Source: Zygnema cylindricum
Lineage: Eukaryota > Streptophyta > Zygnematophyceae > Zygnematales > Zygnemataceae
Assembly: GCA_037447655.1 (NCBI GenBank)
Contig: JBBHKE010001196.1
Location: forward strand, 1-64,000
Length of the DNA: 64,000 nucleotides
Direction: 5' to 3'
In this document: positions 17,616 through 64,000 of the stretch, one piece after another
Position numbering within the stretch: position 1 is the first letter of the stretch
Layout of the letters: every line of letters begins with the position of its first letter
Made by a program: the position numbers and the translations under genes
Notes under the pieces: model-generated
Databases searched by the model: none
Told to the model about the DNA's origin: nothing
What the model saw: only the letters and a program-made list of their open reading frames with translations

Positions 17616-18646
17616 TGTAGAAATAAAAGGTTATTTTAGTATTTTGTAGGTTTTGCAAAATGCAGAAAAGAAGCAGAGGCAGTATGCCTCTAACTTCTCT
17701 CTTCAGCTCCCACACTTGTCGTAGTCACTGAAGGTTGAAGAGGGAGCTAGAGCCATGGCTGCCTATGCTGATTAGAGATAGAGTTACGGGTTGTAGATTT
17801 TGGTAGATTTATCCAAAAGTTTAATTGACGGACCTAGGGTTTGAACCTAGTAACTACCGCCCGTCAACTTTGCCTGTAGCCTTAGCCATTTAGTCTCCCA
17901 TCATGATTGAAGATATATAGTTTGATAGGTATTTAAATGTTAACACGTAGTTTATTTCATTTAACGGATCTTTAAACATAGACACAGTTTGTAAAGTACG
18001 GCGTACGAAACATCCGAAACGAATACTGCGCATTTTGTTTAGAAAGCGAAACAAATACTGCGGAAGTATTTATGACGGTCACGATTGTAATCCGGCTTAA
18101 TCGGACGGCCACAAAGCATGCCGAGATCGTGGAATAGGTTTTCGGCGGTTTGCGGTTGACGTCACGTCAATTGCCATGTGGCAAAATCACATTGGATTGC
18201 GACATCTCCTTGGATTCCAAGAACGAATCCAAAAATGGCATGTGTCGACTTGTTGGCCATGTCGTACAATATCCGTACATAAAGTACATCGGCACTTGTA
18301 CCTTATGTACGATACACTATTATGATTGGTGCCGTACTTCAGTAGATAGAGTTTAGAGAGAGATAGGACTTAGAAAAATTTGATAGATTGGACCCTCTCT
18401 CCCAGAGAGCTTTTGTACAAAAGGTCGACTTTGACCCTTCATAACTTACTGCTCAGGGGAGCAAATTCAGAGATTCTTTTTGCTATAGACTCAGGGGAGT
18501 CTTGCCTTTACAAGGTTGAAGGTTGTCAGACTTTTTTTCTGCCAGGGTGGCAGTTATTCTTGCTGAAACACAAAGGGGTCAGGGTTATCCTAGAGGCTTC
18601 GTGTGAGCTGCCTACTCTGAGGTCCTATGGAGGTCTTAGAGTTACA
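17616..18646 (+). repeat. 5' LTR of element A
   Basis: The LTR starts TGTAGAAATAAAAGG and ends GAGTTACA. Features in order are the conserved start block (CACTTGTCGTAGTCACTGAAGG then the palindrome GCCATGGC at 17752-17759), the antisense tRNA-like module at 17837-17888, a G-box position at about 18172-18181 (here mutated to GCCATGTGGC), a GTAC cluster near 18260-18310, and the block ATTCTTTTTGCTATAGACTC near 18472. Confidence 0.92.
17837..17888 (-). promoter_or_regulatory. Antisense tRNA-like A-box/B-box module in the A LTR
   Basis: Read on the minus strand, TGGCTAAGGC (17888-17879) resembles a Pol III A-box and GGTTCAAACCC (17847-17837) resembles the B-box GGTTCGANTCC. The spacing of about 30 bp is like that of a tRNA gene. 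It recurs in the 3' LTR and in Q. Whether it is transcribed is unknown. Confidence 0.5.
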
Positions 18647-22973: not shown

Positions 22974-22983
22974 AGAGTGACTA

Positions 22984-22997
22984 GAAAATAAAGGGAG
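22984..22997 (+). other. Polypurine tract of element A
   Basis: GAAAATAAAGGGAG lies between the end of the RNase H frame and the 3' LTR start at 22998. Closely similar tracts precede the LTRs of D, G, N and array E. Confidence 0.85.
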
Positions 22998-24028
22998 TGT
23001 AGAAATAAAAAGGTTATTTTAGTATTTTCTAGGTTTTGCAAAATGCAGAAAAGAAGCCGAGGCAGTCTGCCTCTAACTTCTCTCTTCAGCTCCCACACTT
23101 GTCGTAGTCACTGAAGGTTGAAGAGGGAGCTAGAGCCATGGCTGCCTATGCTGATTAGAGATAGAGTTACGGGTTGTAGATTTTGGTAGATTTACCAAAA
23201 TGTTAATTGACGGACCTAGGAATTGAACCTGGTACCTACCGCCCGTCAACTTAGCCTGTAGCCTTAGCCATTTAGTTTGCCATCATGCTTGAAGATATAT
23301 AGTTTGATAGGTATTTAAATGTTAACACGTAGTCTATTTCATTTAACGGTTCTTTAAACATAGACACAGTTTGTAAAGTACGGCGTACGAAACATCCGAA
23401 AAGAATACTGCGCATTTTGTTTAGAAAGGGAAACAAATACTGCGGAAGTATTTATGATGGTCACGATTGTAATCCGGCTTAATCGGACGGCCACGAAGCA
23501 TGCCGAGATCGTGGAATAGGTTTTCGGCGGTTTGCGGTTGATGTCACGTCAATTGCCACGTGGCAAAATCACATTGGATTGCAACATCTCCTTGGATTCC
23601 AAGAACGAATCCAAAAATGGCATGTGTCGACTTGTTGGCCATGTCGTACAATATCCGTACATAAAGTACATCGACACTTGTACCCTATGTACGATACACT
23701 ATTATGATTGGTGCCATACTTCAGTAGATAGAGTTTAGAGAGAGATAGGACTTAGAAAAATTTGATAGATTGGACCCTCTCTCCCAGAGAGCTTTTGTAC
23801 AAAAGGTCAACTTTGACCCTTCATAACTTACTGCTCAGGGGAGCAAATTCAGAGATTCTTTTTGCTATAGACTCAGAGGAGTCTTGCCTTTACAGGAATG
23901 AAGGTGTTCAGACTTTTTGTCTGCCAGGGTGGCAGTTATTCTTGCTGAAACACAAAGGGGTCAGGGATATCCTAGAGGCTTCGTGTGAGCTGCCTACTCT
24001 GAGGTCCTATGGAGGTCTCAGAGTTACA
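22998..24028 (+). repeat. 3' LTR of element A
   Basis: The LTR is 1031 bp, the same length as the 5' copy. It retains the intact G-box GCCACGTGGC that the 5' copy has lost. It ends GAGTTACA, followed by the target duplication CCGTT. Confidence 0.92.
23555..23695 (+). promoter_or_regulatory. U3 control block: G-box plus GTAC cluster (A 3' LTR)
   Basis: A palindromic G-box GCCACGTGGC lies at 23555-23564. About 80 bp further, five GTAC cores occur within some 50 bp (about 23646-23693). G-boxes bind bZIP/bHLH factors; GTAC is the core bound by SBP-box (SPL, CRR1-type) factors. The same pair occurs upstream of TATA-like sequences in the LTRs of D, E, F, I/J and K/L. The regulatory role is inferred from this conservation. 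Confidence 0.5.
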
Positions 24029-31991: not shown

Positions 31992-32873
31992 TGAAATTAT
32001 GTGGTCTCTATTGACCCATAGAATGAGCAACCTATGTAAAGCCTATAGGATAATATTTGCCCCTTCCACTTTCCCACTGAATAAGTTCCGCCCAGGCACA
32101 AAAATATTCTGATCACCCTCACCCCTATAAGGATAAGACTCTTTTGAGTTAAACGCAAAAAAAATCACTGAATTTGCTCCCTTGAGCAGTAAGTTATGGC
32201 TGGTCAAAGATGACCTTTATAGTTACAAGCTCTCTTCGAGAGAGGTACCTAAATATCACTTAGTATTGGTCTGCGTACTCACGACTACCTACTAATAAAT
32301 CCTAGTCCAATAGGAACACTATATAGTACAAAAAGATACAATGGGCGATGTACTTATTTTACATCCATTGTACGACATAGTCAACAAGATAACACCTCTC
32401 AAATCGAGAGCCATGGTTCCTCCTCCCATCTTCTCCAGTATCAAATAATGCGGCTCCACGTGGCATCCCGTGACGCTATCTCCGATGGTCGCCAAAATCT
32501 CACTTCGGGTGGCGCTACAATGTTGGCCGTCCGATCAAAACATATTTTACACGGTTCAGATTCGTGTACGTGCATGATTTGTTCCTCTTCTTTAGTTTGG
32601 TGTTAATTAGCTGTTGTGTTAATGTTTATATATCTTTGAAATATGTCACGTGTATCGTTTCGATAAAGCCTAAGTGGATAAGGCTAATGACTACATAGGA
32701 ACTACCTAAGTTCAAATATGGACCTAGGCATTATTTTGGTAAAATATCCTCTACTTCAAAATCTGCCACTTTCTAAATATCGCGGCAGCCATGGCGTGCT
32801 TTTGATCCTCACTCTCTCTCTTTGAAGTGGAAATAAATTAGAGAAGAGAACTATTAATTACCTCTTTTCAACA
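31992..32873 (-). repeat. 3' LTR of element G
   Basis: On the plus strand it starts TGAAATTATGTGG and ends TTTTCAACA. It matches 37527-38413, 1-727 and the N LTR. Confidence 0.88.
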
Positions 32874-37526: not shown

Positions 37527-38413
37527 TGAAATTATGTGGTCTCTATTGACCCACAAAATGAGCAGCCTATGTAAAGCCTCTAGGATAATATTAGCCCCTT
37601 CCACTTTCCCACTGAATAAATGCCTCACAGGCACAAAAATACTATGACCACCCTCACCCTTGTGAGAAAAAGACTCCATTGAGTTAAACGCAAAAAAAAT
37701 CACTGAATTTGCTCCACTGAGTAGTAAGTTATGGCTGGTCAAAGATGACCTTTATATTACAAGCTCTCTTAGAGAAAGGTACCTAAATATCACTAAGTCT
37801 TGGTCTTCCTACTCACGTCTACCTACTTCTAAACCCTAGTCCAATAGGAACACTATATAGTTTAAAAAGGTATAATGGGCGATGTACTTATTGTACGTCT
37901 ATTCTACGACATAGTCTACATGGTAACACCCCTCAAATCGGGAGCCATGGTTCCTCTTCCCATTTTCTTCGACATCAAATAATGTGGCGCCACGTGGCAC
38001 CGCGTGACGCTATGTTCGATGGCCGCACAAATCTCACTTCGGGTGGCGCTATTATGTTGGCCGTCCGATCAAAACATATTTTACACGATTTAGATTCGCG
38101 TACGTGCATGACTTGTTCCTCTTCGTTAGTTTGGTGTTAATTAGCTGTTGCGTTAATATTTATATATCTTTGAAATCCGTCATGTGTATTGTTTCAATAA
38201 AGCCTTAGTGGATAAGGCTAATGACTACATAGTGAACCACAGACTTAGGTTCAAAATTCGGACTTAGGCATTATTTTGGTAAAATATCATCTACTTCAAA
38301 ATCTGCAACTTTCTAAATGTGGCGGCAGCCATAGCGTGCCTTTGATCCTCAATCTCTCTCTTTAAAGTAAATCTAAAATAGAGAAGTGTTATATTAATTT
38401 CCTCTTTTCAACA
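37527..38413 (-). repeat. 5' LTR of element G
   Basis: The LTR starts TGAAATTATGTGGTC on the plus strand and ends TTTTCAACA. The tRNA-like module is on the plus strand here, which is antisense to the element: GTGGATAAGGC near 38209 and AGGTTCAAAATTCGG near 38247. Confidence 0.88.
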
Positions 38414-44762: not shown

Positions 44763-44988
44763 TGCAATTCTGTGGTCTCCATTGACCCACAGAATGGGCA
44801 ACCCATGTAAAGCCTCTAGGTTATCTTATGCCCCTTCCTCTTTCCCAATAAATAAGTGCCGCCCTGGCACACAAGTATTCCAACCACCTTTAAGCTTGTG
44901 AGGACCCGACTTTGTTGAGCTAAACGCAAAAATAATCACTGAATTTGCAAGCAGTAAGTTATGGTTGGTCAAAGATGACCCTTAAAGT
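44763..44988 (-). repeat. 3' LTR of element N (family F), left part
   Basis: The LTR starts TGCAATTCTGTGGTC and follows the F family to CCCTTAAAGT. It is interrupted by element M and resumes at 57654. The total is about 896 bp, close to the 882-887 bp of the G LTRs. Confidence 0.85.
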
Positions 44989-46232
44989 TGTCATGCACGA
45001 TTACATTTTATTGCCTATGGAGGAATTTCGACCCTATTATGACTTCATTGGATGCGGTTTCGGACCAATTTTGGAGTTAGTTATTATTGGGCCGGCAGGG
45101 CACCAAAAGCTATTTTTGAGAGACGATTTTGACTCCACCGTTTATTGTTTTGATCTGGAATCAAACGTCCTATTACATTCTATGTAGCGTAGCTGATAGA
45201 ACTTTACTTTACTTAATTTGGATAATTAGGCTACGAGATATGTTAGGTCAAAGTAGTCTTTTGGTACAGTTTTTGAAAACTTTGATGTACAGTAACTTTG
45301 CAACGGATCATTCAAATACGCTGTATTTTATATTGGTAGATAGAACATTTTAATACCTTTGCAATAAGATTTGGTTTGTATTAATCCAATAGATATTTGG
45401 AGAGATATGGCAGTTTCTGTAAACTGCATAATATAGGTTAATTACTGACTTTTTGAAGTAATGATTGCTTTGGTCGGTTGGAAATTGGTACAGGCTGTCC
45501 AACCGACGGTTCATAAGTCAAAGGTTCTGACGTTTTCGGGAATTAAACATAGAATAAGTCCCGTAGTGTCAGTTTTTGATGCTAAGTATTAGTTCTAAGT
45601 GTTTTAGGTTGTTGGAACTCAATATTGCATTGGAAATGTAGGCTCAGAACTGTCTCTCAGTTCTGTCGCCTTCCAAAACCTGAACTCACCAGAAAAGAGC
45701 TATTTTGCCAGCCTCCCTTTTGCCATCTTTGGATCATGTTGGAGTTGCCTTCCAGTTAGTCAATTTGTGTCTTGTTTGGCAACCAGGATACTTGGGGCTT
45801 TTTGATTGCAATAGTCCTTGGGATTCTAAAGGAGGGAGTTGGACGGATCCCTGATTGGGAGGGATCCGTGGGGTTTCTGGATCTTTGGATTCTGATCACG
45901 GGAGTTTTTCCGTGGCCTCAGTTTGCTCCTCTGGGTGGGTCAAAACCCTTATTAAGTTAGCATTTGGGGACGCTTGAATGTTACTTATTTTGTGCTTAAT
46001 TATTTGGAATATGTTTATGTATTGTGGTGAATGGCTGCTGTTTGAGTAGGGTAGGAGGCAATATTGTTAAGTCTGCAGAAATCACTGTCATAAATGTTAT
46101 GGCAGTCTAAATTATTTCCATTTTGATTTGATTTGTTAATTCCCAGGATTACGGTTATGGTTGACTTTCTTTTGTTTAAAGTTGTTAGCATAGCCCACCG
46201 AGCTTGATGATATTAAAGCTCGCGGTTAGACA
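44989..46232 (+). repeat. 5' partial LTR (segment Y) of M
   Basis: It is 1244 bp, starts TGTCATGCACG and ends GGTTAGACA, identical in extent to 56191-57434. The normal LTR start (TGATTCAAG, segment X) is missing here and is found instead at the far right end. The several short frames in Y (for example 44993-45187) occur in both copies and have no recognisable domain. Confidence 0.9.
45653..45667 (+). promoter_or_regulatory. Probable RNA 5' end and self-primer of M
   Basis: TCTCTCAGTTCTGTC is the exact reverse complement of 46229-46243, which spans the LTR end and the bases just after it. In Tf1-type elements the transcript's first 11 nt pair with the primer site in this way. If the RNA starts here, its first 11 nt pair with 46233-46243. 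The start is inferred from this pairing. An AT-rich AATATTGCA about 30 bp upstream could act as TATA element. Confidence 0.55.
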
Positions 46233-46243
46233 GAACTGAGAGA
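46233..46243 (+). other. Putative self-priming primer-binding site of M
   Basis: GAACTGAGAGA directly follows the LTR terminus TTAGACA. It does not look like the complement of a tRNA 3' end (no TGG start) or of the initiator tRNA-Met half site used by the Copia elements here. It is complementary to 45653-45663 in the LTR. Confidence 0.6.
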
Positions 46244-46377
46244 CCGTGCATTGTTGTATTTCTTATAAGGTGCACTTGTGTCTTTGATTTCAGTTTATTT
46301 TATTTAAAATGTCAAAAAAATAAAATATAGATGGATGTTGGAATGGTAGGGGAGGTGGGGGGGCACCTCGTAGAGAC

Positions 46378-47851
46378 ATGTTTCAAACCCCGGAAATGGG
46401 TGAAACTAGTTCTTCTTCCCGCAGGGCTGGCCAAATTTCTGCAGATTCGGGGAAGCCATCGTTGCCATCGGTTTCTCCTACAGGTGGAGGACAAGACCCT
46501 CCAAATCTCCCAAGTCCTTCCCCAATTTTTCCTCTTCCGTCCACTCCTCCCATTGGGATGTCAACTGAAGATTTCCCCACTCTAGCAGAATCCGTTGAGC
46601 GAAGACGAGCTTCTCGGCCATTTCCACCAATTAGGAGGGCTTCACATTCTCCTTCTTCTTATTCGGCAGCTTCCACTCACTCTCCTATAACTGGACCAGC
46701 TACCCGTGCTAAGCAACCTCACCTTAAGTTCCCAATTCCACCACCAGACTTACAGGAAATCGTTGGGAGGAACGAGCTTAGGGCTTTGTATGGGCAACAA
46801 TCACGTGATCGAAGGGGTCCTAAAGATACTAATAGAGGAGCTAGGTCGAGAGCAGACGTGTCCGAATCATGGAGGAGCCAGGGGAAGGAAAAGCCGAAGA
46901 TTTCTCCGCTACCACATTCTGATTTTTCGACCACCGAATCCGTTACTTTGGGGAGCGGTTATGGAAGACGAAACCCAAGGGATCTAACAGCTAGGAGGCC
47001 TACATTGGACCTAGGGGATTCCTCAACATTGAATTTTCCCACATCTTCACCACCTTCTCCCAATTTTGGCAAGGTTTCGTCGAAAGAGGGGAAAATTGCT
47101 GACTTTCCTTCACCCACGGGGGGGGGGGGGAAATCAAGAGCAAGGAGGAGTAATTTCGGAATTAGTTGTAGAAGGGGTACAACTTGATTTACCGGTCCAG
47201 ATTTCAGAGTTACATGAGGTAGAGGGAAAAATTGGAATACTCGGAGATCCAATTTTGGGGGAAGTAGAGGAAGGGGGAGCAGATGCTACACCAGAGGTTG
47301 AACAACGAGATTGGAGTCTTTTCTCAAATAAATCGGCAGGGATTGAGCCTATAGTGGAGGGGGATTTGGGAGTAGGTGGAACAGGTCCAAGGGATGACTT
47401 ATTTCCTATTCCATCGTTGGTACTTACTCCGACCAACAATCCAGAACTAGACTCCCTCCTTTTTCGATATAGATCTGCAAGGGCTCCTGATCCAGGAGAA
47501 GCACCTTTGGAGGAGGTCCCGGATATAGATCAGATTCCGACTCCCATTCCTCGACAGTTTGAGCATCTCCTTCCCATTCCTCCCCCTATTGATCCTATTT
47601 TTCCTCCCATTATGCGTTCCGTTGGACACCAACGGTTTGATTTAACTGGGCTGATGTCTGCCATTCAAGCGGAATTAAATGTTGGGGTAGAGAGAGATGC
47701 TTCCACAGGGTTAGGGAAGAGTGGAAAGGGACAGATTGGGATTCGAAGGGTCACGAAAATTAGAAGGGAAGTGGGGGAATCGTCCAGGGCAACAACTAAA
47801 CCATTGGGGGTTGGGCGATTGTCTTGGAAAAGACCACGAGGGGTTAGATAG
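46378..47851 (+). pseudogene. N-terminal Gag region of M, frameshifted at a 13-G run
   Basis: The frame opens at ATG 46378 with MFQTPEMGETSSSSRR and is rich in Ser, Pro and Arg, apparently disordered. At a run of 13 G (47118-47130) it shifts: one frame ends at 47187, while the frame that continues to 47851 (PTNNPELDSLLFRYRSARAP) is in register with all later M frames up to the methyltransferase. Either the G-run length differs from the active element or slippage is used. A TAG at 47849-47851 ends this piece; reading resumes at once in the same frame. The role is unknown, probably a matrix-like Gag arm. Confidence 0.55.
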
Positions 47852-48484
47852 ACTGATGATACTCTCTCTGGATCTGATGCATTGGTACACGAAAATACGG
47901 GGACGGAAGCAACACACATTTCATCACCAAATGGAACTGACAATCGGAGAGTTAGACTTCGAGTGGATCCAGGGGTGATTTTCAAGGAGAATTTTCAAAA
48001 AGTACAAGAAAATTTGGAAATTAGATTACAACAACTCTCACCCACTCCTGTAGCTATATCCCTTATCATTCCCCATATCAGAACAAACCCCTCTCCTTCA
48101 CCTCCTTCTCCCTCTAGCTCCTCCACCTCGTCTTCTGCACCGTCTTCACCCATTTCTCCTATTCCGCCTACTAGAGACTTAGACCCCAATCCCACCTTTA
48201 GCTCATCTCATTCCCATCCTCCACCTATTGAGGAAGAGGAACATGTGCACCGACAGGGTGATGGAGGTAAAATCATAGAGAAATCAATTTCATCTCATTC
48301 CCCTCCTTCTTCACCATCCACCCCTTCTTCCCTTTCCTCTTCAAAATCCTCGTCAGTTGTTCCTGATTCTTATAGCCCTTCAGGGCCACCCGATCCTCCT
48401 TCACCGGCTGGGAGTGTGCCATCTTCTGGAAATCCCCTTTCTCCTATCTTTGATACCAGTACCAGGGAAACCAAGGGGTTTTGA
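47852..48484 (+). pseudogene. Ser/Pro-rich Gag linker of M
   Basis: This is the same frame as the previous piece, between single stops at 47849 and 48482 (TGA). The protein has long Ser/Pro stretches (PSPPSPSSSSTSSSAP) and no recognised domain. It is likely a flexible part of Gag upstream of capsid. Confidence 0.5.
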
Positions 48485-49369
48485 TTGCCGTTTGAGGACG
48501 GTTTCCGGATGGGGGATAACTCGAGGTTATTTACAAGGGATGCATCGGGCATTTCTTTTTCCTTGTTTAAACTCCAATGGGAGTCTTTTTATGCCGCTGA
48601 AGTTAAGAAGTATCGAGGAGGTGTTGTACCGATAGACTTAGAGCGGATGTTATTTCCCATGATGGTGGATCGATTGGCAGGAGGGGCTTTATCGGATTAC
48701 ATGGAGAGGAAGACGGGTTTAACTTCTCCAACCATCAAAATTTCGGATCCGACCTTAGACCACGCCCATGTTACTGCGGTTGCTGATCTAGAGGCAACTA
48801 TCCGTCACCCAATTTCAGCCACGTACACGTTTGATGATAAGTTACGTGATGAGACATTCGCTTACTCCCAGATGAAGAGATCAGAGTATGTCGCAATTGC
48901 TGCTACAAGGATGGAGGCGAATTCCCAACCTTGTACAACATTATTGGGTATATGGGAGACTCAGTATACCGAGCGAAATGAGGCTTCCATGCGAGAGTTC
49001 CATGAATTTAAACGAAAGCCAGATGAAACTCCTCTCACTATGTACAACCGCCTTGCTAATCTTTGTGTTCGGACTCAGCAAGATATTAAGAATCCGTTGA
49101 TAATTGCTAAGTTTGAACATGCATTATCAAAATCCCTTGATCTGAAAACGACCCGAAATTTAGAGAATTGGACAGCCCAAAAGGCTCTCAATGGACATCC
49201 TATCACTGCTTTTGATCTTGCTACCGTTGTTCAAAAATACCATGATCATTTTGCAGATCGAGAAGCTCAAGAGAGGACCATGACAGGGAAAATTCGAAAA
49301 GAGGAAGCATTTGCTGGATCCAACACTCCTTTTGTCACCATTGTTGATTTAAATGCTGCCGTATCTTGA
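48485..49369 (+). CDS. Capsid-like Gag domain of M
   Basis: The frame continues from the preceding piece after a single TGA. The 294 codons are largely helical and contain FHEFKRKPDETPLTMYNRLA followed by a conserved F..ALS, the pattern of the gypsy Gag capsid domain (a flexible K...E.......L..L run after a long helix). It would build the particle. It ends at a lone TGA (49367-49369), after which the same frame goes on with the nucleocapsid. Confidence 0.65.
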   Translation: MPFEDGFRMGDNSRLFTRDASGISFSLFKLQWESFYAAEVKKYRGGVVPIDLERMLFPMMVDRLAGGALSDYMERKTGLTSPTIKISDPTLDHAHVTAVADLEATIRHPISATYTFDDKLRDETFAYSQMKRSEYVAIAATRMEANSQPCTTLLGIWETQYTERNEASMREFHEFKRKPDETPLTMYNRLANLCVRTQQDIKNPLIIAKFEHALSKSLDLKTTRNLENWTAQKALNGHPITAFDLATVVQKYHDHFADREAQERTMTGKIRKEEAFAGSNTPFVTIVDLNAAVS

Positions 49370-51364
49370 GCAATGAAGGGGAAAGGAGTGGCTGAACCGA
49401 ATCCGCAAGCTCACGGAGTGGATAGACAAATCTTATTCTCATGCAACAATTGTGGACAAGTTGGACATGGGTGGCAAAAATGTCCGAGACCTTTATCAGT
49501 TGAGTTAGCAGCAAAGAGGGCAAAGATTGACAACGAACGAGATGCTTGGAATGTGGCACGTGGAATTGGTGATCAGAAAAACGGAAAGGATGGTGGAGGT
49601 CGAGATCACGGGAAAAGAGGTGATACATCAGATGCACAGCAGGTGGAATTTCAGAGAATTCGTCAAATTAAGCTTCCTCAGTTGGACCATCGGAACATTC
49701 CTGATGATTTGCGGGCAAAGTTCTCTACTCCCAACACGACATGCGAGGCGTGTGGATATCAGAGCCATACGGCGGCTCAATGTTTTCGGAAACACGGGAT
49801 TCCGAAAGAATTGCTTAAATATGTGAAAACTAATCCTGCTACCGGGAAGGCATTTATGAGTATTCCGACATTTTGTCAGATTTATCTTCCTCGTGGGACA
49901 TTTCAACCCGAGGGGGAGAGGAATGAACCCGATCCGGTTTGGGGGGCACAATTCGGAAAACCAACAGCTTATGAAACAAAATTACAGAAAGAGTTGTCGG
50001 AAGTTAAACTCAAACTTGATTTATTGATGAGAGAGAACGCAAGCAAAGGTGCTTCTTCTTCAAAGTCGACCAAGAAATTAGAGAAAGAGGCACGGTTGGC
50101 TTACCTAACTCAACAAATGGCAGCTTTACAGACAGAAGATTCAGATTCAGAGGAGGATCCGGAAGGATGGGAGAGTTCAGACCACTCTCGGATGAGTGGA
50201 TTGTTTGCAGGTGATCCGATTTTGTTTAATGTTGGCATTGGAGAGAGTAGGAGACAATTAAGAAAAACCATTGAGGATCAAAGGAAAGACAAGTTACCGG
50301 CGAAACCCATTGATCATGAGAGGAAGGGGCAATCTGACATTCTTTCTTTTACCCCTCGGCAAGTCATTTTGAAGACGAAAGTCGGTTTGGGGGTTAAGGC
50401 TGATTCTCCCCCACCACCTCTACCAAAGATGACCCCTTCTGTTGATCCAACCTCTGATCCAGTCCCACCAGACACAACAGAAGACAAATCGGACAAATCC
50501 TCTACTTCTCCTCTCACCATTAAGGTGGAATCTCATCCTACTTCGGTATCGAATCCGCCTGTCCCACCTTCTCGGCCCTCCGCCATGTTGGTGGATCTTC
50601 TCATCCCACACTCTATAGAGTTAGTTCGCACTTTGGCTAACTCCCACCAAATTTCGGATGAGGAACTCATTTCGGCATTAGGATCTAAGATCACCGGCAG
50701 GGTGACATCCACAGATGCCTTTAGAGCACCCATTTCATCTTCCGATTCCAGTTTCGGTAGCTCGGCAAAGGTGCCAATCGCCGATAGGGATTACTCCTCT
50801 TTAGCCGTTGCATATATTGGAAATTCTACTAGACACTTTAAGATCAATAGTTATGGTGGTTTTCTCCAGACAGTGGTTGATACTGGTGCCCTTCCTAACC
50901 TTATATCTACTAGTGCTTTGGAGAAGTTACCACCCAATTGGAGGCCGAAAGTATTCCCAAGCAAGGTGTGCCTAAGTACAGTTAGTAGTGGTAATCAACC
51001 AGTTTTTGGTATGGTGAAGGGCATGGACATCGAATTTGGGGATGATGTAGGTCAGAAGATTTCTATTCGCCTTCCTTTCCTCGTGGTCGAGGGCAACCAG
51101 TTTGAAATTTTATTGGGAACACACACTTGGACCCGATTGGGAGCCATGGTAGATTTTTGGAGCGAACAAATCTGCATTCGGGATTTGCCAACTTCACCGG
51201 CTCGCCGAGTTTTTGTCCCTCTCACCTTGTGGGGACGTCACCATTCCCAAGAGGCAGCAGCAGGCTGCTACCCCGTTTACACTAGCAATGTGTCCTCAAT
51301 TCATTCTTCTAAATTTTCTGTGGAATCGGAGGATGAATCTACCGACATTGCACCGCTTGTATAG
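49370..51364 (+). CDS. Nucleocapsid and aspartic protease of M
   Basis: The 663 codons from ATG 49373 start with a CCHC zinc knuckle CNNCGQVGHGWQKC at residues 24-37 and have a second, CEACGYQSHTAAQC, at 124-137. A coiled-coil-like segment (KLQKELSEVKLKLDLLMREN) lies near residues 203-222 and a Pro/Ser linker near 345-410. The retropepsin motif VVDTGALPNLIS has catalytic Asp503, and a second conserved ILLGTHTW block follows near 582. The protein would bind genomic RNA and cut the polyprotein. It ends at TAG 51362-51364, directly followed in frame by the methyltransferase region. Confidence 0.82.
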   Translation, partial: AMKGKGVAEPNPQAHGVDRQILFSCNNCGQVGHGWQKCPRPLSVELAAKRAKIDNERDAWNVARGIGDQKNGKDGGGRDHGKRGDTSDAQQVEFQRIRQIKLPQLDHRNIPDDLRAKFSTPNTTCEACGYQSHTAAQCFRKHGIPKELLKYVKTNPATGKAFMSIPTFCQIYLPRGTFQPEGERNEPDPVWGAQFGKPTAYETKLQKELSEVKLKLDLLMRENASKGASSSKSTKKLEKEARLAYLTQQMAALQTEDSDSEEDPEGWESSDHSRMSGLFAGDPILFNVGIGESRRQLRKTIEDQRKDKLPAKPIDHERKGQSDILSFTPRQVILKTKVGLGVKADSPPPPLPKMTPSVDPTSDPVPPDTTEDKSDKSSTSPLTIKVESHPTSVSNPPVPPSRPSAMLVDLLIPHSIELVRTLANSHQISDEELISALGSKITGRVTSTDAFRAPISSSDSSFGSSAKVPIADRDYSSLAVAYIGNSTRHFKINSYGGFLQTVVDTGALPNLISTSALEKLPPNWRPKVFPSKVCLSTVSSGNQPVFGMVKGMDIEFGDDVGQKISIRLPFLVVEGNQFEILLGTHTWTRLGAMVDFWSEQICIRDLPTSPARRVFVPLTLWGRHHSQEAAAGCYPVYTSNVSSIHSSKFSVESEDESTDIAPLV

Positions 51365-52711
51365 CAATTCCCGATCTCCGCTGAGTGGGAGGAATCCCAC
51401 AAACGGAGATTGGAGGTAGCGGCTTCTTTGAGACGAAGTCACGAAAAAGTGTTCAAGGTTTTGATAGATGAGGAGACATTGCCTTCTACGACAAAAGAAT
51501 GTAAAAGAGGGACCGAATTTCAACATTTTATTCAGGGCCAAATTTTGAAGCCACTTCCTCGGAAAGTGGTTGATTTGACACCGGAGCCGGCAGGGTTAAC
51601 AGTGGTCTCCTTATTTTCTGGCATCAGTACGGATTTAGAAGCTTTATTGATGAACGGCCACCAGATTAGAAGTTATTGGGCCGTGGAAATTTCATCTTCA
51701 ACTCGGGCAGCGAGCGAATTTCGACTATTAGAGCTTCACCGATTGTACCCTCTCCAATTACCTGTTTCTGCTATTTCACAATCTCATCATCGACTCCCAC
51801 AAAATGTTGACTTGATTACCTCGCAACACATCCGAGATTTGGGGGGGGTAGATTTAGTGATAGCCGGCTGGCCTTGTCAAGGGTATTCTCAGGCAGGGAA
51901 GGGAAGGGGAAATTGTGACAGTCGGAGTCGTTTATTCTATCAAATGGTTTTTATTCTCAATCTTTTGCAACTACATCAGCACAAACCGTTGGGATATTTG
52001 TTGGAGAATGTCTTTCCTGGTGCGGATCAACGTAGTAAGGTAGTTACTGCTTGGCAAGAGACAATTCACTATTTAGGGGAGCCTTTGGTGTTTGATGCAG
52101 CTCAGATGGGGTCTCGTGCTTATCGTCTTCGCTCGTATTGGACCAATCTTGCTCCTCTTTCACTGTTGAAAGCAGCCGTGGGATTACAAAAGCGTCCTCC
52201 AAACCTCACCGTCGATCAGATTTTGGACAAAGGCCGTACAGCTACTCCTGTCACGTCTACACCTCGACAACCATTTTATGACTGCAACAAATCCGGTCAG
52301 CCGAGAGGCGCACTCCCCACTCTTGTTTCTTTTCCCCGGAGCCATGCTTATCGCTTAGGTTCCCCTGGCATGATCTTTGACACCAATACACAGAAATGGG
52401 ATGTGCCTAACATCAATGAACGAGAACGAGCCATGGGTTTTCGCACCAATACTACCGCTGCTCCTAGCCTCTCCCTTGACACCCGTTGCCGTTTGATTGG
52501 TCAAGCTATGGATTTACATGCATTACGGTGGTTAGTTGGACTTTCACTATCTTATGGTCCCTTGCATTCTCACCAGCATCGCGCTTCATTTTTACAAGCT
52601 CCAGCTCGCCTGGCTATGCAGGTCACACTAGCGCTTGGGGGGGGGAGAGATAGAAAAATTCATCAAAAAATCCAACAACAGAAAACCCGGGGGGGGGACC
52701 AAAAGAAATAG
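51365..52711 (+). CDS. C5-cytosine DNA methyltransferase domain of M
   Basis: The frame continues that of the protease after one stop; the first ATG is at 51410 (433 codons). Motifs in the normal, non-permuted order, numbered from that ATG: I, SLFSGIST 67-74 (AdoMet binding); II, AVEISSSTRA with the AdoMet-contacting Glu; IV, AGWPCQGYSQAG with catalytic Cys156; VI, LLENV with Glu199; VIII, SRAYRLRSYW 235-244; IX, RGALPTLVSFPRSHAYR from 299; X, RLIGQAMDLHALRWLV from 361. The pattern is closest to DNMT3-like enzymes. Retrotransposon-borne enzymes of this type are known from charophytes and dinoflagellates and can methylate CG de novo. It could methylate the element's own DNA. The 3' end shifts frame at 9-G runs (52637-52645, 52689-52697). 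Confidence 0.9.
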   Translation, partial: QFPISAEWEESHKRRLEVAASLRRSHEKVFKVLIDEETLPSTTKECKRGTEFQHFIQGQILKPLPRKVVDLTPEPAGLTVVSLFSGISTDLEALLMNGHQIRSYWAVEISSSTRAASEFRLLELHRLYPLQLPVSAISQSHHRLPQNVDLITSQHIRDLGGVDLVIAGWPCQGYSQAGKGRGNCDSRSRLFYQMVFILNLLQLHQHKPLGYLLENVFPGADQRSKVVTAWQETIHYLGEPLVFDAAQMGSRAYRLRSYWTNLAPLSLLKAAVGLQKRPPNLTVDQILDKGRTATPVTSTPRQPFYDCNKSGQPRGALPTLVSFPRSHAYRLGSPGMIFDTNTQKWDVPNINERERAMGFRTNTTAAPSLSLDTRCRLIGQAMDLHALRWLVGLSLSYGPLHSHQHRASFLQAPARLAMQVTLALGGGRDRKIHQKIQQQKTRGGDQKK

Positions 52712-52740
52712 GGAAGCAAGTTTATAGGGTAGAGGATGTT

Positions 52741-55700
52741 GTGTGGGTGTCTAGTAGGGTGTTACAGGAAGGAGATAGAGCAAAGGGGTTGGGGGGGGAC
52801 GAGTTTGATCCGTCCCAGTGGACGAGGCCACCGGAGAGTTTTGCAGCTGTGGAACCGGGGAAGATGGATTGGATTATTGGGGAACAGTTAGAAGAGAGCC
52901 AAAAGTCTAAAATTGTGGACCTATTGGGAAGGAATCGGGATGTGTTTTCATGGGCTGATACAGATGTTGGAATTTACAAGGGCACACCATTTAGGATTGA
53001 CTTGGTGGACGAATCAGCGACGGTTTGGCAAAAACAATATCCTTTGAGCCACTCGGAGAGAGAATTTGTGAAAGAGAAAGTCCAAAGTTTGGTTGATTCA
53101 GGATTAGTACAGGAGAGCACTGGTCTTCATGGATTTGCTTCACCAACGGTACTTCCTCCGAAGAAAGATTCTGCCGGGAAGACTGTAGATTTCCGAATGT
53201 GTGGAGATTATCGAATGTTGAATGCAGCCACTATATCGGATAAGTATCCTATGCCCACCCCTGAAGAAATATTTGATGCCTTGGTTGGAGCAACTATATA
53301 TTCAACCTTGGATTTGAAGCAGGGATTTCACCAAGTGCCAATGGAACCTAAGCATCGAGAGAGGACCGCATTTTGGGCAGGTAACAGGTTATACGAGTGG
53401 CTTTATATGCCTTTTGGATTGAAAAATGCACCCGCCAAGTTCCAACGAGTAATGGATGAAGCTTTACGAGGGATTGAATGTGCTCGGTGTTATATTGATG
53501 ACGTGATCATTTTTTCTAACAATTTTGAGGATCACCTCCTTCACTTACAAATGGTGTTTGATGCTCTGAGAGCGGCAGGCTTAAAGTGTCATCCAGGTAA
53601 AGGGATATTCGGGGTGGACAAGATTTTGTATTTGGGACATGAGGTCACCCCTGGAACAGTAGGTCCACATATGGTCAAGGTCGCCGCTTTGGATGCATTG
53701 CCAGCTCCTGCAGATGTTTCTTCACTTCGCACATTTTTGGGGCTAGCTAACTATTATAGACGATTTGTTCCAGAGTTCAGCAGCCGAGCTCAGGCCCTCA
53801 ATTTACTCTTAAGAAAAGATCAAGAGTGGCAATGGAAGGAAGAGCAAGAAGAGGCATTCCAATTTTTGAAGAATGCGCTTAAAGAAAGTCCGATTCTTCG
53901 TATGCCGGACCATTCTCGACCATTTATTCTTTACACCGATTGGAGTAGATTTGGATTAGGGGCCGTATTAGCTCAGCTTGATGATTTGGGAGCCGAATAC
54001 GTAGTAGCCTATGCGAGTCGGAGCAACAATAAGGCGGAGGCCTCATACAGTAGCTATCATGGGGAGCTTCTTGCAGCCGTTTGGGCCATCCAACACTTCC
54101 GACCGTACCTTTATGGCATTCGTTTCACCCTCATTACCGATCACCAACCTTTGAAATGGATAATGGAGAATAGCAAACTTACAGGAAAACTCGCTCGATG
54201 GGCTTTGATATTGCAAGAATATGATTTTGAGATAATTCACCGAGCGGGTGAGACCCATGGTAATGCAGATGGTCTTAGCAGAAACCCTGATCCATCCTCT
54301 GTGGATGCAACTGGAGCAAGGTATGATGAGGATCCGATTTTAGGGGTTGGAATTGTCATGGCAGCTACAGCATTTTCTTTGCTACCTAGAAAAGAGGGGG
54401 AACTTTTTGCATTAGGGGCGGAGGTGGAAGGGCACGCTCCATTGTCAGCTGGTAGGGTTGACGTTTTTGATGATTTAGACACCTTGAAATCCATTCAGCA
54501 GGGGTCAATTTTACCACATTTGGAGGGGAGCCAGAAAGCTAGAGTTTTGCAAAGGATGTCTGCTTATAGTTGGGATAGAGGGGTCCTCTTAAGGGTTTGG
54601 CCCGATGGCGTCAGGAAGGTAGTTCCACCACCCGGTGATCGAGAAACCTTGGTCACTAACCTCCATGAGCAATGTGGTCATTTTGGTCAGAAGCGTACCG
54701 CTTCTTTGGTTGCAGCATCTTATTGGTGGCATGGTATTCGAGCACAAGTGAATCGAGTTGTTCAAGCATGCCTAACATGCGATCGAGTGAAAGCGGCCTT
54801 TGACAAGAAAGGTGGTGCCGAATTACATTCTCTTCCCATCCGGGGAATGTTTTACCGTTGGTCATTAGACTTGCTAGGGCCTCTTCCGACTAGTCGACGA
54901 GGAAACCGCTTCGTGCTTGTGATGATAGAGCATTTTTCTAAGTGGATTGAGCTCGTGGTGTTACCTCGGAAAGAGTCTAAGTCCGTGGCCGATGCCTTTT
55001 TACAGAGAGTTCTTGCTCAGTTTGGGGCCCCAGCGGAGGTTTTGACCGATCAGGGTTCCGAATTTGCTGGCGATTTTTCGACTTTGATGGAGCAATGTTT
55101 GATTGATCACCGACTTACTAGTAGAGATCATCCTCAAGCTGATGGGTTAGCCGAACGTTGTGTCCAAACAGTCAAGAGAGCACTTCGAAAATATGCCCTC
55201 GAGGAGGATGTGGGGGATTGGGATCGGAGAGTGCCTTGGATTGCTATGGGCTACAGGTTTAGTAGACAGGCTTCTCTTCACAGTCACAGTCCTTATTTTA
55301 TGTTGTTTGGTAGGCATCCAATTCTTCCAGGATCTGCCTCGGCCCAAGCCACTGTCTTACCCGAGATGGATAGTAAAGGAACAGTGGAGAGGCTAATTAC
55401 TTCTCGAGCACAGGTTTTTCATCGGGAGATTCCGATAGCCATGGGCAATTTGCAAGCGGCCCAACACAGAGATCAGCTTTGGTATTCCCACCGTAGGAGT
55501 GGCTCTTATGTTCCTCGACAACGACGTTTTCAGCCCGGGGATTTTGTTTATCGGATGCGGCAGAAAAAGGATACTTTGGATATTTCTGCAGGCCGGATTA
55601 TTTTGAAGGTGGTTGAGGTTTCCCCTAAAGGAGTGCTAACTTTGGAAGGGGCTGACGGCAAGAGAGTTAAAGATAATCAAATTAATGTGGCTCCTTGCCA

Positions 55701-55926
55701 CCTTCGAGGGCTCGAGGACGAGCCAACATTACATTTCACTTATTTCCCCTCTCCTCCCATTTGTTCTAATTCTCCCTTGTGTGCCCCTGGTTACGAAACT
55801 ACAGACATTTTATTATGTGAGGCATGCAATCGAGCTTGGCATTCTTCTTGCTTGCCTACGGATTGGGCAGGTCGGGACCAACTTGGCCGACCTTGGTTTT
55901 GTGGGGAGTGTGAAATGGGGGTTTGA
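52741..55926 (+). CDS. Gypsy Pol of M: RT, RNase H, integrase and PHD finger
   Basis: The open frame has 1061 codons; it is open upstream to about 52696, so the true start is fusion with the methyltransferase part by frameshift. RT: DFRMCGDYRMLN, STLDLKQGFHQV, and YIDD at 251-254. RNase H: Asp400, Glu442, Asp467 (LITDHQPLKW). Integrase zinc site: His642, His647, Cys677, Cys680. Catalytic core: Asp710 (SLDLLGP), Asp770 (LTDQGSEF) and Glu805. After the C-terminal barrel-like segment comes a PHD-type finger with Cys1008, Cys1014, Cys1026, Cys1029, His1034, Cys1037, Trp1052, Cys1054 and Cys1057. In chromoviruses this position holds a chromodomain; here the PHD finger may steer integration to a histone mark. 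Confidence 0.93.
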   Translation: MWVSSRVLQEGDRAKGLGGDEFDPSQWTRPPESFAAVEPGKMDWIIGEQLEESQKSKIVDLLGRNRDVFSWADTDVGIYKGTPFRIDLVDESATVWQKQYPLSHSEREFVKEKVQSLVDSGLVQESTGLHGFASPTVLPPKKDSAGKTVDFRMCGDYRMLNAATISDKYPMPTPEEIFDALVGATIYSTLDLKQGFHQVPMEPKHRERTAFWAGNRLYEWLYMPFGLKNAPAKFQRVMDEALRGIECARCYIDDVIIFSNNFEDHLLHLQMVFDALRAAGLKCHPGKGIFGVDKILYLGHEVTPGTVGPHMVKVAALDALPAPADVSSLRTFLGLANYYRRFVPEFSSRAQALNLLLRKDQEWQWKEEQEEAFQFLKNALKESPILRMPDHSRPFILYTDWSRFGLGAVLAQLDDLGAEYVVAYASRSNNKAEASYSSYHGELLAAVWAIQHFRPYLYGIRFTLITDHQPLKWIMENSKLTGKLARWALILQEYDFEIIHRAGETHGNADGLSRNPDPSSVDATGARYDEDPILGVGIVMAATAFSLLPRKEGELFALGAEVEGHAPLSAGRVDVFDDLDTLKSIQQGSILPHLEGSQKARVLQRMSAYSWDRGVLLRVWPDGVRKVVPPPGDRETLVTNLHEQCGHFGQKRTASLVAASYWWHGIRAQVNRVVQACLTCDRVKAAFDKKGGAELHSLPIRGMFYRWSLDLLGPLPTSRRGNRFVLVMIEHFSKWIELVVLPRKESKSVADAFLQRVLAQFGAPAEVLTDQGSEFAGDFSTLMEQCLIDHRLTSRDHPQADGLAERCVQTVKRALRKYALEEDVGDWDRRVPWIAMGYRFSRQASLHSHSPYFMLFGRHPILPGSASAQATVLPEMDSKGTVERLITSRAQVFHREIPIAMGNLQAAQHRDQLWYSHRRSGSYVPRQRRFQPGDFVYRMRQKKDTLDISAGRIILKVVEVSPKGVLTLEGADGKRVKDNQINVAPCHLRGLEDEPTLHFTYFPSPPICSNSPLCAPGYETTDILLCEACNRAWHSSCLPTDWAGRDQLGRPWFCGECEMGV

Positions 55927-55961
55927 GCTTCGGTCTTTATGGCTTCTTAGGACAAGGACCT

Positions 55962-55976
55962 AAGAAGGGGGGGGAA
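55962..55976 (+). other. Polypurine tract of M
   Basis: AAGAAGGGGGGGGAA abuts TGATTCAAG at 55977. This fixes the 3' LTR start at segment X rather than at TGTCATG of segment Y. Confidence 0.85.
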
Positions 55977-57434
55977 TGATTCAAGAGTGAACTCGACGGT
56001 CCCAACATTGGGACGGGGTGGGTAACTTTTATGTCTTTTCATTGTTTTTATCATTTATATGTCCACACTAATGTTGTCAGGATGATCATTGTATTCCGAC
56101 GTATGGAATTCTACACGTGGAGTGTTATTTGTCGCCAAATTTCTATATTATTATTCTTGCATGAAGCATCACAGCCATGGGCTCGACAGCTGTCATGCAC
56201 GATTACATTTTATTGCCTATGGAGGAATTTCGACCCTATTATGACTTCATTGGATGCGGTTTCGGACCAATTTTGGAGTTAGTTATTATTGGGCCGGCAG
56301 GGCACCAAAAGCTATTTTTGAGAGACGATTTTGACTCCACCGTTTATTGTTTTGATCTGGAATCAAACGTCCTATTACATTCTATGTAGCGTAGCTGATA
56401 GAACTTTACTTTACTTAATTTGGATAATTAGGCTACGAGATATGTTAGGTCAAAGTAGTCTTTTGGTACAGTTTTTGAAAACTTTGATGTACAGTAACTT
56501 TGCAACGGATCATTCAAATACGCTGTATTTTATATTGGTAGATAGAACATTTTAATACCTTTGCAATAAGATTTGGTTTGTATTAATCCAATAGATATTT
56601 GGAGAGATATGGCAGTTTCTGTAAACTGCATAATATAGGTTAATTACTGACTTTTCGAAGTAATGATTGCTTTGGTCGGTTGGAAATTGGTACAGGCTGT
56701 CCAACCGACGGTTCATAAGTCAAAGGTTCTGACGTTTTCGGGAATTAAACATAGAATAAGTCCCGTAGTGTCAGTTTTTGATGCTAAGTATTAGTTCTAA
56801 GTGTTTTAGGTTGTTGGAACTCAATATTGCATTGGAAATGAAGGCTCAGAACTGTCTCTCAGTTCTGTCGCCTTCCAAAACCTGAACTCACCAGAAAAGA
56901 GCTATTTTGCCAGCCTCCCTTTTGCCATCTTTGGATCATGTTGGAGTTGCCTTCCAGTTAGTCAATTTGTGTCTTGTTTGGCAACCAGGATACTTGGGGC
57001 TTTTTGATTGCAATAGTCCTTGGGATTCTAAAGGAGGGAGTTGGACGGATCCCTGATTGGGAGGGATCCGTGGGGTTTCTGGATCTTTGGAGTCTGATCA
57101 CGGGAGTTTTTCCGTGGCCTCAGTTTTCTCCTCTGGGTGGGTCAAAACCCTTATTAAGTTAGCATTTGGGGACGCTTGAATGTTACTTATTTTGTGCTTA
57201 ATTATTTGGAATATGTTTATGTATTGTGGTGAATGGCTGCTGTTTGAGTAGGGTAGGAGGCAATATTGTTAAGTCTGCAGAGATCACTGTCATAAATGTT
57301 ATGGCAGTCTAAATTATTTCCATTTTGATTTGATTTGTTAATTCCTAGGATTAGGGTTATGGTTGACTTTCTTTTGTTTAAAGTTGTTAGCATAGCCCAC
57401 CGAGCTTGATGATATTAAAGCTCGCGGTTAGACA
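55977..57434 (+). repeat. Full 3' LTR of M (X + GC + Y)
   Basis: The LTR runs from TGATTCAAG to GGTTAGACA, 1458 bp. The joint between X and Y (56185-56194) is the perfect 10-bp palindrome GACAGCTGTC. The element's ends at 44989 and 57649 correspond exactly to the two halves of this palindrome without the central GC. Confidence 0.9.
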
Positions 57435-57649
57435 GAATGATTCAAGAGTGAACCCGACGGTCCCAACATTGGGACGGGGTGGGTAACTTTTATGTCTTTT
57501 CATTGTTTTTATCATTTATATGTCCACACTAATGTTGTCAGGATGATCATTGTATTCCGACGTATGGAATTCTACACGTGGAGTGTTATTTGTCGCCAAA
57601 TTTCTATATTATTCTTCTTGCATGAAGCATCACAGCCATGGGCTCGACA
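57435..57649 (+). repeat. LTR-LTR junction bases GAA plus second X segment of M
   Basis: GAA (57435-57437) separates the 3' LTR end from a new LTR start TGATTCAAG. The internal region begins GAACTG and ends GGGGAA, so GAA can be the leftover bases of a two-LTR circle joint. X here is 212 bp, as at 55977-56188, with two differences, and ends CTCGACA. Confidence 0.85.
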
Positions 57650-57653
57650 AAGT

Positions 57654-62133: not shown

Positions 62134-63163
62134 GGTAGAAATAAAAGGTTATTTTAGTATTTTCTAGGTTTTGCAAAATGTAGAAAAGAAGCCGAGGCAG
62201 TCTACCTCTAACTTCTCTCTTCAGCTCCCACACTTGTCGTAGTCACTGAAGGTTGAAGAGGGAGCTAGAGCCATGGCTGCTTATGCTGATTAGAGATAGA
62301 GTTACATGTTGTAGATTTTGGTAGATTTACCAAAATGTAAATTGACGGACCTAGGGTTTGAACCTGGTACCTACCATTTGTTAACTTAGCCTGTAGCCTT
62401 AGCCATTTAGTCTGCCATCATGCTTGAAGATATATAGTTTGATAGGTATTTAAATGTTAACACGTAGTCTTTTTCATTTAACGGATCTTTAAACATAGAC
62501 ACTGTTTGTAAAGTACGGCGTACGAAACATCCGAAACGAATACTGCGCATTTTGTTTAGAAAGCGAAACAAATACTGCGGAAGTATTTATGACGGTCACG
62601 ATTCTAATCCGGCTTAATCCGACGGCCACGAAGCATGCCGAGATCGTGGAATAGGTTTTCGGCGGTTTGCGGTTGACGTCACGTCAATTGCCACGTGGCA
62701 AAATCACATTGGATTGCGACATCTCCTGGGATTCTTAGAACGAATCCAAAAATGGCATGTGTCGACTTGTTGGCCATGTCGTACAATATCCGTACATAAA
62801 GTACATCGACACTTGTACCTTATGTACGATACACTATTATGATTGGTGCCGTACTTCAGTAGATAGAGTTTAGAGAGAGATAGGACTTAGAAAAATTTGA
62901 TAGATTGGACCCTCTCTCCCAGAGAGCTTCTGTACAAAAGGTCAACTTTGACCCTTCATAACTTACTGCTCAGGGGAGCAAATTCAGATATTCTTTTTGC
63001 TATAGACTCAAGGGAGTCTTACCTTTACAAGGGTGAAGGTTGTCAGACTTTTTTTCTGCCAGGGTGGCAGTTATTCTTGCTGAAACACAAAGGGGTCAGG
63101 GTTATCGTAGAGGCTTCGTGTGAGCTGCCTACTCTAAGGACCTATGGAGGTCTCAGAGTTAGA
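62134..63163 (+). repeat. 5' LTR of element Q (family of A)
   Basis: The 1030-bp LTR starts GGTAGAAATAAAAGG (TG mutated to GG) and ends GAGTTAGA (CA mutated to GA). It is closely similar to the A LTRs and keeps the intact G-box near 62693 and the GTAC cluster near 62780-62826. The left target site would be CTTAC (62129-62133). Confidence 0.9.
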
Positions 63164-64000
63164 GGTTATGGGCCTACCATCTAGGGTGGCCATATTCAAT
63201 AGAGCTGGCTTCATATACTGGGAAAGTATGATGACAGGAGCTCTATGTGAGAAACGGTTTTGGGGAATAGTGAGTGGACGGGTGAGGCGTCCATCCAGTC
63301 TTGGGATACCTCCAGGGTTTACAGGAGGAAAATTCACTAGAGATGCAGATTCATCTTCAACGGAGGAGACAAAGGAAGGAGAGGTGGTGGACAAAGGCAA
63401 GGAGAAGGAGACGGTCACACCAATAGCAGCCGGTTCGGCATTCATGTCACCTATTCTAAGGAACGAGGAGAATGATATCGATACGTGGGACTACAACAAT
63501 ATGGCGGCTAAGCACTTCATCCTCCGCCATCTTACTCAAGGGCTTGCATCTCCCCATTTGCACGTAGAGAGGGCATCCGATCTTTGGATGGCTCTCATAG
63601 AGATGTATCGAAGTGGTACGATTCAGCAACAACAGTTGGCTGATCAGAAAATTAAGGAGTATGTATACAAAGGGGTGAAGATGTTGGATTTTTGCAATGA
63701 GCTTGCTACACTTTTCATGGAACTAGAAAGTGCTGGAAAAGTATTTAGTGAAAAGGAAAAGGTTAACTGTTTACTGATGAAGTTACTCGAGGAGTTCGAG
63801 AATATAGTCAACCGTGTGCAAGACTTGGCGGACTCAAGGTGGATTTGGAATTCAGTGGTAGGGATGATTCTCGTTCGCGAGAATACAATTGAGATCCGAA
63901 GGGGAGGAAAGAGTGGGCAAGCTTTAGCAGGGGGGACCGATTGGCGAAACAATGATTCTAGAAAACAGGTTGGAAATTATCGAGGGGAGGGGCAGAAAAA
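63144..64000 (+). CDS. Gag of element Q, cut by the window end
   Basis: The frame is open for all 285 codons to the window end, and is nearly identical to residues 1-285 of the A polyprotein, with changes such as GPPSRVPIFNGAG to GLPSRVAIFNRAG. It includes DTWDYNNMAAKHFILRHL and EEFENIVNRVQDLADS. The more likely start is the ATG at 63168 in the primer site. The zinc knuckle and pol lie beyond the window. Mutated LTR termini suggest an old copy even though this part is open. Confidence 0.85.
   Translation, partial: MEVSELEVMGLPSRVAIFNRAGFIYWESMMTGALCEKRFWGIVSGRVRRPSSLGIPPGFTGGKFTRDADSSSTEETKEGEVVDKGKEKETVTPIAAGSAFMSPILRNEENDIDTWDYNNMAAKHFILRHLTQGLASPHLHVERASDLWMALIEMYRSGTIQQQQLADQKIKEYVYKGVKMLDFCNELATLFMELESAGKVFSEKEKVNCLLMKLLEEFENIVNRVQDLADSRWIWNSVVGMILVRENTIEIRRGGKSGQALAGGTDWRNNDSRKQVGNYRGEGQK
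63164..63178 (+). other. Primer-binding site of element Q
   Basis: GGTTATGGGCCTACC differs at one base from the 15-nt initiator tRNA-Met complement and contains the gag ATG at 63168. Confidence 0.85.

Follow-up and report, generated by a model that had tools for sequence, protein, structure and literature searches.

Organisation of the locus

The window, by which we mean the whole stretch of 64,000 nucleotides analysed, contains a transposable element whose coding region runs from a gag-like segment through a protease, a DNMT3-type methyltransferase (DNMT), a reverse transcriptase (RT), RNase H and a DDE integrase to a PHD-like finger. Self-comparison of the window showed that this coding region is framed by split direct repeats in the layout A-coding-B-A-B. 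The features are as follows.

44985..44988, no strand: target-site duplication AAGT, left copy
44989..57649, + strand: whole element, 12,661 bp, ends TGTC...GACA
44989..46235, + strand: repeat A, copy 1
48485..49369, + strand: gag-like segment, closed by TGA; weak similarity by blastp (best 7.5e-6) to the N-terminal region of polyproteins from relatives
49370..51364, + strand: two zinc-knuckle-like motifs (49442 and 49742) and aspartic protease (VVDTGA at 50873), closed by TAG
51365..52711, + strand: DNMT3-type C5-cytosine methyltransferase ORF, 448 codons, domain at about 51593-52540
52654..55926, + strand: pol open frame, stop to stop, with RT (YIDD at 53491), RNase H, integrase and PHD-like finger (55780-55911)
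52689..52697, + strand: stretch of nine G where the DNMT and RT frames overlap, which might be a -1 shift site or a hot spot for indels
55962..55976, + strand: purine run AAGAAGGGGGGGGAA directly 5' of repeat B copy 1, a putative polypurine tract
55977..56188, + strand: repeat B, copy 1
56185..56194, no strand: internal B/A junction, palindrome GACAGCTGTC, consisting of the right end, GC and the left end
56191..57437, + strand: repeat A, copy 2
57438..57649, + strand: repeat B, copy 2, the right end of the element
57650..57653, no strand: target-site duplication AAGT, right copy

Between repeat A and the gag-like segment (46324-48484) lie three open frames of 210-287 codons, partly proline- or serine-rich, with no match at E 0.001 among the proteins collected from relatives. 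The window is rich in transposable elements, with ORFs of Ty1/copia type as assigned by eye; a copia-like element at 17616-24028 has a 1450-codon ORF and flanking repeats that are 96% identical, and a second copia-like copy (62135-64000) is cut by the right end of the window.

Reading frames of the coding region

The order RT, RNase H, DDE integrase is that of Ty3/Gypsy elements, and the integrase in the pol frame has both HHCC and DDE motifs. Pfam scans of four ORFs found an rve integrase and no phage-integrase match of the kind expected from a tyrosine recombinase. The gag-like segment had no Pfam match. For the protease the match to Asp_protease_2 (E 0.0059, 17.7 bits) lies below the cut-off of 24.3, and the region matches the relative P0135 by blastp at 1.7e-21. 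The PHD-like finger at the end of pol (55762-55911) scored 23.9 bits against a Pfam cut-off of 24; the finger is strong in the relative P0018 (39.7 bits) and is also present in P0069, a polyprotein of Klebsormidium nitens in which no DNMT match was found.

The gag-like segment, the zinc knuckles with the protease, and the methyltransferase share one frame, which is cut by two in-frame stops (TGA at 49367-49369, TAG at 51362-51364). A preliminary description of this DNA had placed the methyltransferase between protease and RT, in frame with the former and joined to the latter. The ORF does lie 3' of the protease and 5' of the RT, and the frame shared with the protease is real, except that the TAG separates the two; the joining to RT in one frame, on the other hand, does not hold, as the RT-bearing frame is -1 relative to that of the methyltransferase and overlaps it by 58 nt.

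The stops in the present copy may be damage or may be leaky, and the copy is probably either defective or reliant on readthrough and frameshifting. The TAG and the G-run could be sites of programmed readthrough and -1 frameshifting that set the ratio of Gag-Pro to methyltransferase to Pol, which we consider possible, if on the doubtful side. A TAG followed by CARYYA is a leaky stop context, and the CAATTC found here fits it in five of the six following bases; G GGG GGG in the overlap also fits the slippery pattern X XXY YYZ. Moreover, in Marchantia Mp_4g09160 (P0137) and other proteins the DNMT is not followed by RT within the same protein, which suggests that a break between the two may be normal. 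The nearest relatives argue against programmed recoding, since P0005 reads protease and DNMT in one frame, P0001 and P0015 read DNMT and RT in one frame, and P0135 is uninterrupted from the zinc-knuckle region and protease through the DNMT into RT; the additional TGA upstream in the window copy points the same way.

The methyltransferase domain

That a C5-cytosine methyltransferase resides in a Ty3/gypsy element had been proposed together with a DNA_methylase profile search as a check. The ORF at 51365-52711 matches this Pfam profile with E 3.8e-12 (46.7 bits, cut-off 22), which together with the DNMT3 folds described below and the Gypsy-type pol confirms the proposal. The match to NCBIfam dcm has a similar E-value of 2.5e-12, but its 47.1 bits are below the cut-off of 100.65. 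The motifs, numbered as we assign them, occur in the canonical order that had been noted, namely I (LFSGIST, aa 83), IV (GWPCQG, aa 168), VI (ENV, aa 214-216), VIII-like (SRAYRLR, aa 250-256) and X-like (GQAMDL, aa 379), with both the catalytic PCQ and ENV present; the catalytic cysteine, given as Cys156, becomes Cys171 if residues are numbered from the first codon of the open frame. The canonical order rules out identity as a DRM enzyme, in which the motif order is rearranged (PMC5890265).

The best sequence match of the ORF among solved structures is DNMT3A (7.9e-11). A family profile built from 15 sequences (the window and 14 relatives) ranked DNMT3A first (1.4e-22), followed by DNMT3C and DNMT3B, and next 4onj (1.7e-12; titled only 'DNA methyltransferase', and which we take to be a plant DRM), DRM2 (4.7e-9), HhaI (7.1e-8) and two of DNMT2 type (2.3e-4 and 3.4e-4); neither DNMT1 nor CMT is named among the 57 sequences listed for this profile. 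The AlphaFold model of the domain, from a 31-row alignment, has a pLDDT of 84.1 and a pTM of 0.84, and in a fold search of the PDB the best 50 of 199 matches at E <=0.001 are all of the DNMT3 family (best 5.4e-17, rmsd 4.8). By profile ranking and fold, the domain is nearer to DNMT3 than to DNMT1, CMT, DRM, DNMT2 or bacterial enzymes. Pfam found neither ADD nor PWWP in the window ORFs scanned. A virus or bacterium as the source is disfavoured by the profile ranking and by the weaker viral fold matches (best 2.6e-15, rmsd 15.2).

The window copy keeps PCQ. Glutamate replaces the proline before the catalytic cysteine in 26 of 96 related domains, in several separate clades (for example P0003, P0045, P0059, P0124 and P0160), and the motif IV pattern was not found in 4 of the 96; the canonical catalytic motif is thus not always kept across the family. 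Such GxEC in place of GxPC would suit an enzyme that acts on RNA of the element or host, or on the host genome, for instance to silence competing elements or to hold down its copy number, and not on the element's cDNA. RNA methylation, with regard to LINE-type elements, and a slowing of retrotransposition are among the options discussed by de Mendoza 2018 (PMC5890265). We nevertheless regard these targets as unlikely, since profile and fold are those of DNMT3 and not DNMT2-like, since an enzyme located next to RT in the precursor is well placed to reach cDNA, and since DIRS-type retrotransposon DNMT3s methylate DNA de novo (PMC5890265). It is to the latter, dinoflagellate enzymes that the de novo CG activity cited in the preliminary description applies; for the Gypsy enzyme of K. 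nitens expressed in yeast no methylation was detectable, a result its authors called inconclusive (PMC5890265). The CpG observed/expected ratio was considered as a footprint of self-methylation, and is similar in the element (0.65) and its left and right flanks (0.65 and 0.75), so that there is no clear sign of additional methylation-driven decay. New cDNA is the substrate that we favour.

Repeats, ends and insertion of the element

The two copies of A (44986-46235 and 56188-57437 in the self-comparison) are 99.4% identical, with 7 mismatches in 1246 bases compared, and those of B (55974-56188 and 57435-57649) are 99.1% identical, with 2 mismatches in 215 bases, three shared junction bases counted in. 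Recent activity had been proposed from near-identical LTRs; this stands as regards the age of the insertion, with the reservation that the repeats are split in the DIRS-like manner and that the copy is interrupted by stops and a frame change. The element therefore lacks the two plain LTRs of Ty3/Gypsy elements and has split direct repeats instead, whereas its AAGT duplication is within the 4-6 bp of Ty3/Gypsy target duplications. To our knowledge, DIRS elements have no target duplication; they would also be expected to encode a tyrosine recombinase, where this element has an rve integrase.

A starts with TGTC and B finishes with GACA, forming an inverted end pair with AAGT on either side. With AAGT counted once, the joined flanks can be aligned to a related unoccupied site at 32150-32300 with no gap where they meet. 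A second related repeat, at 37690-37840, aligns with a single 1-base gap that falls among the duplicated bases, and a 6-base gap further left is common to the two alignments. The 4-bp duplication and the gapless fit indicate that A-coding-B-A-B was inserted as a single unit. The internal B/A junction, GACA-GC-TGTC, is a palindrome composed of exactly the two element ends. About one such 10-base palindrome with at most one mismatch (mean 1.16) is expected by chance per 64-kb window, so it is noteworthy for its identity to both ends and not for its rarity; repeat layout and palindrome are known here from one copy of the element. As to priming, no TGG occurs between 20 nt upstream and 40 nt downstream of the A/coding boundary, and a scan for iMet-type primer sites, the one type scanned, gave six matches in the window at <=2 mismatches, none near that boundary.

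A plain LTR element, in which A is the LTR and B was added at the right end by tandem insertion or recombination, would account for the fact that A by itself resembles a 1.25-kb LTR pair, and tandem arrays with a deletion could yield the layout observed. This origin is nevertheless quite improbable, given that copy 2 of B stops exactly at the GACA beside the target duplication, that the flanks rejoin without a gap, that the inverted end pair is formed by A and B together, and that this layout of the repeats has also been reported from K. nitens (PMC5890265). Insertion of the whole A-coding-B-A-B unit is the reading we retain.

Relatives of the element

With the DNMT as query, 14 proteins were obtained at E 0.001 from 7998 candidates scored; the pol search gave 1084 relatives, 120 of them listed, and the DNMT part of P0015 used as query gave 74 polyproteins, P0015 itself among them. 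Viral contigs searched with P0001 and genome contigs searched with P0015 gave no match; with A1, weak matches at 16 loci were obtained in viral contigs (E 8e-9 to 1e-3). A DNMT match is present in 106 of the 207 sequences compared, which include both window ORFs, and spans 230-380 residues in 96 of the 106. Two layouts occur, with the DNMT either before RT (or after protease) or between RNase H and integrase, and homologous polyproteins have the methyltransferase at the same place as the window element. Named sources of DNMT-bearing members are Marchantia polymorpha, K. nitens (P0186) and Closterium spp.; in P0074 and P0090, whose label 'Tetstr1' probably stands for Tetraselmis striata, a 216-residue DNMT match starting at residue 1 was obtained solely with a profile built for this analysis. 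The species named among the higher-ranked pol relatives listed are of Closterium, Calypogeia, Klebsormidium, Marchantia, Chara and Tetraselmis, which makes it likely that the host is a streptophyte.

Other domains were observed in some of these proteins. In five of the 207 (P0048, P0051, P0052, P0056 and P0065) the motifs DPW(A/C)GxG and TSPWF occur C-terminal to the PHD finger and resemble a second, amino-type methyltransferase; of the two scanned with Pfam, which are also the two among the five that bear a DNMT, P0048 gave no more than a weak D12 MTase match (E 0.16) and P0065 gave none. The related Gypsy polyprotein P0092 has a deoxynucleoside kinase domain (PF01712, 8.7e-23) and a PHD finger between RNase H and integrase.

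The DNMT tree comprised 96 of the 106 rows, after matches below 230 or above 380 residues had been dropped, including both Tetraselmis rows, and the RT tree comprised 120 of 140 rows, the 20 dropped being DNMT-less rows numbered above P0113. Both were quick searches with SH-aLRT support only, and long branches were flagged. On the DNMT tree all 39 rows of the RNase H-integrase layout, a label that here includes proteins without RT but with integrase after the DNMT, fall to the same side of a single branch, which has 98% SH-aLRT support; on the RT tree this layout, with 29 rows, needs two changes among the 120. The before-RT layout requires 8 changes on the first of these trees and 14 on the second, partly because a DNMT in a separate ORF goes unseen. 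For the same reason the 70 of 120 RT-tree rows labelled DNMT-less were rejected as evidence of loss, since an ORF further upstream may encode the domain, which is the case in the window.

Among 44 elements with single, long matches to both DNMT and RT-RH, the distances in the two regions are correlated with r 0.83 overall, 0.90 for the 15 before-RT elements and 0.82 for the other 29, values reached by none of 2000 permutations in each of the three sets. Judged by these distances, the methyltransferase is co-inherited with RT in the family. P0015, the nearest relative among those compared, is 58% identical to the window element in the DNMT and 79% in RT-RH, and by this measure the DNMT changes faster than RT. 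That the domain is a roleless passenger captured by the present copy, as the stops and frame change of this copy might suggest, is hardly credible in view of its presence in half of the sequences at two positions and mostly over 230-380 residues, the correlated distances, and the purifying selection (Ka/Ks under 0.2) reported for the K. nitens family, KnitGypsy-Dnmt3 (PMC5890265).

Proposed mechanism

Overall, we consider it rather probable that the element is a young Ty3/Gypsy-type copy of the KnitGypsy-Dnmt3 kind, with a packaged DNMT3 that methylates cDNA, PHD targeting, and ends regenerated at the junction. The methyltransferase would be packaged as part of the Gag-Pol precursor and would methylate newly made cDNA no later than at integration, giving a copy that already bears its marks when it enters the genome; the PHD-like finger that follows the integrase would direct insertion towards a histone state. 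As the purine run lies directly 5' of copy 1 of B, the repeat of reverse transcription would be B-A and the integrated form would be permuted. The boundaries of reverse transcription (purine run, then B...A) and those of integration (A...B) would thus be offset by the length of B, which would require the integrase to use ends regenerated at the palindromic B/A junction, whether by way of a circular intermediate with joined ends or with the junction serving as template. The palindrome, being made of both ends, suggests integration from a joined-end intermediate, and the finding that the integrase of HIV-1 can cleave in vitro a palindrome formed by the two joined ends of its own virus (PMC1905944) indicates that the opening of such a circle is possible in principle. 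It is tempting to speculate that a widespread green-lineage clade combines DNMT3, PHD finger, DDE integrase and permuted repeats, and that a DNMT3-methylated joined-end circle is opened by the integrase at the palindrome, but this wider proposal is doubtful.

If this wider proposal is true, one precursor protein both integrates new DNA and marks it epigenetically. The unusual repeat layout and the many relatives suggest an old partnership of DNA copying and DNA marking, in which the DNMT3-RT association seems to have been kept over much divergence, and the capture of DNMT3 by Gypsy elements appears to be broad across green algae and liverworts and not a peculiarity of Klebsormidium. The element also provides concrete ends, a junction and domain pieces for testing self-methylation of cDNA by retroelements, and the same pieces bear on how a DDE integrase works with DIRS-like repeats.

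Comparison with known systems

The resemblance to the elements of de Mendoza 2018 that had been noted for this DNA is well founded. KnitGypsy-Dnmt3 of K. nitens is a Gypsy element with Dnmt3 in Pol and DIRS-like repeats (PMC5890265), and the Gypsy pol, the DNMT3-type domain in Pol and the A-coding-B-A-B repeats of the window element are the marks of that already described kind. The K. nitens protein KFL_009030040 (P0186), which we infer to belong to KnitGypsy-Dnmt3, has the DNMT before RT and is 41% (DNMT) and 49% (RT-RH) identical to the window element. Unlike KnitGypsy-Dnmt3 as described in the main text of PMC5890265, the window copy has in-frame stops and a -1 shift before RT, and a PHD-like finger ('PHD' has no occurrence in that main text); target duplication and palindromic end junction are, relative to the same text, resolved in the window element. 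The literature searched, largely the main texts of open-access papers, yielded no report of Gypsy-DNMT elements in Marchantia or Closterium and no further report beyond PMC5890265, and Tetraselmis has no occurrence in PMC12344493; with this scope, the absence of reports is weak evidence of newness. The scope of the family and the structural detail may be new.

SymbioDIRS-Dnmt3 of Symbiodinium likewise has DNMT3 in a Pol polyprotein and A-coding-B-A-B repeats, but encodes a tyrosine recombinase, in contrast to the DDE integrase and target duplication found here, and the DIRS and Gypsy acquisitions of Dnmt3 are regarded as independent (PMC5890265). With chromoviruses of the Ty3/Gypsy type, as described in PMC3605345, the element shares RT-RNase H-integrase followed by a domain of chromatin-reader type, and differs in having a PHD-like finger for the chromodomain, a DNMT3 domain and split direct repeats. 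Finally, host DNMT3 and DRM give the best profile and fold matches of the window domain, which is distinguished from them by its non-DRM motif order, the lack of an ADD or PWWP match, and its being encoded by a mobile element.
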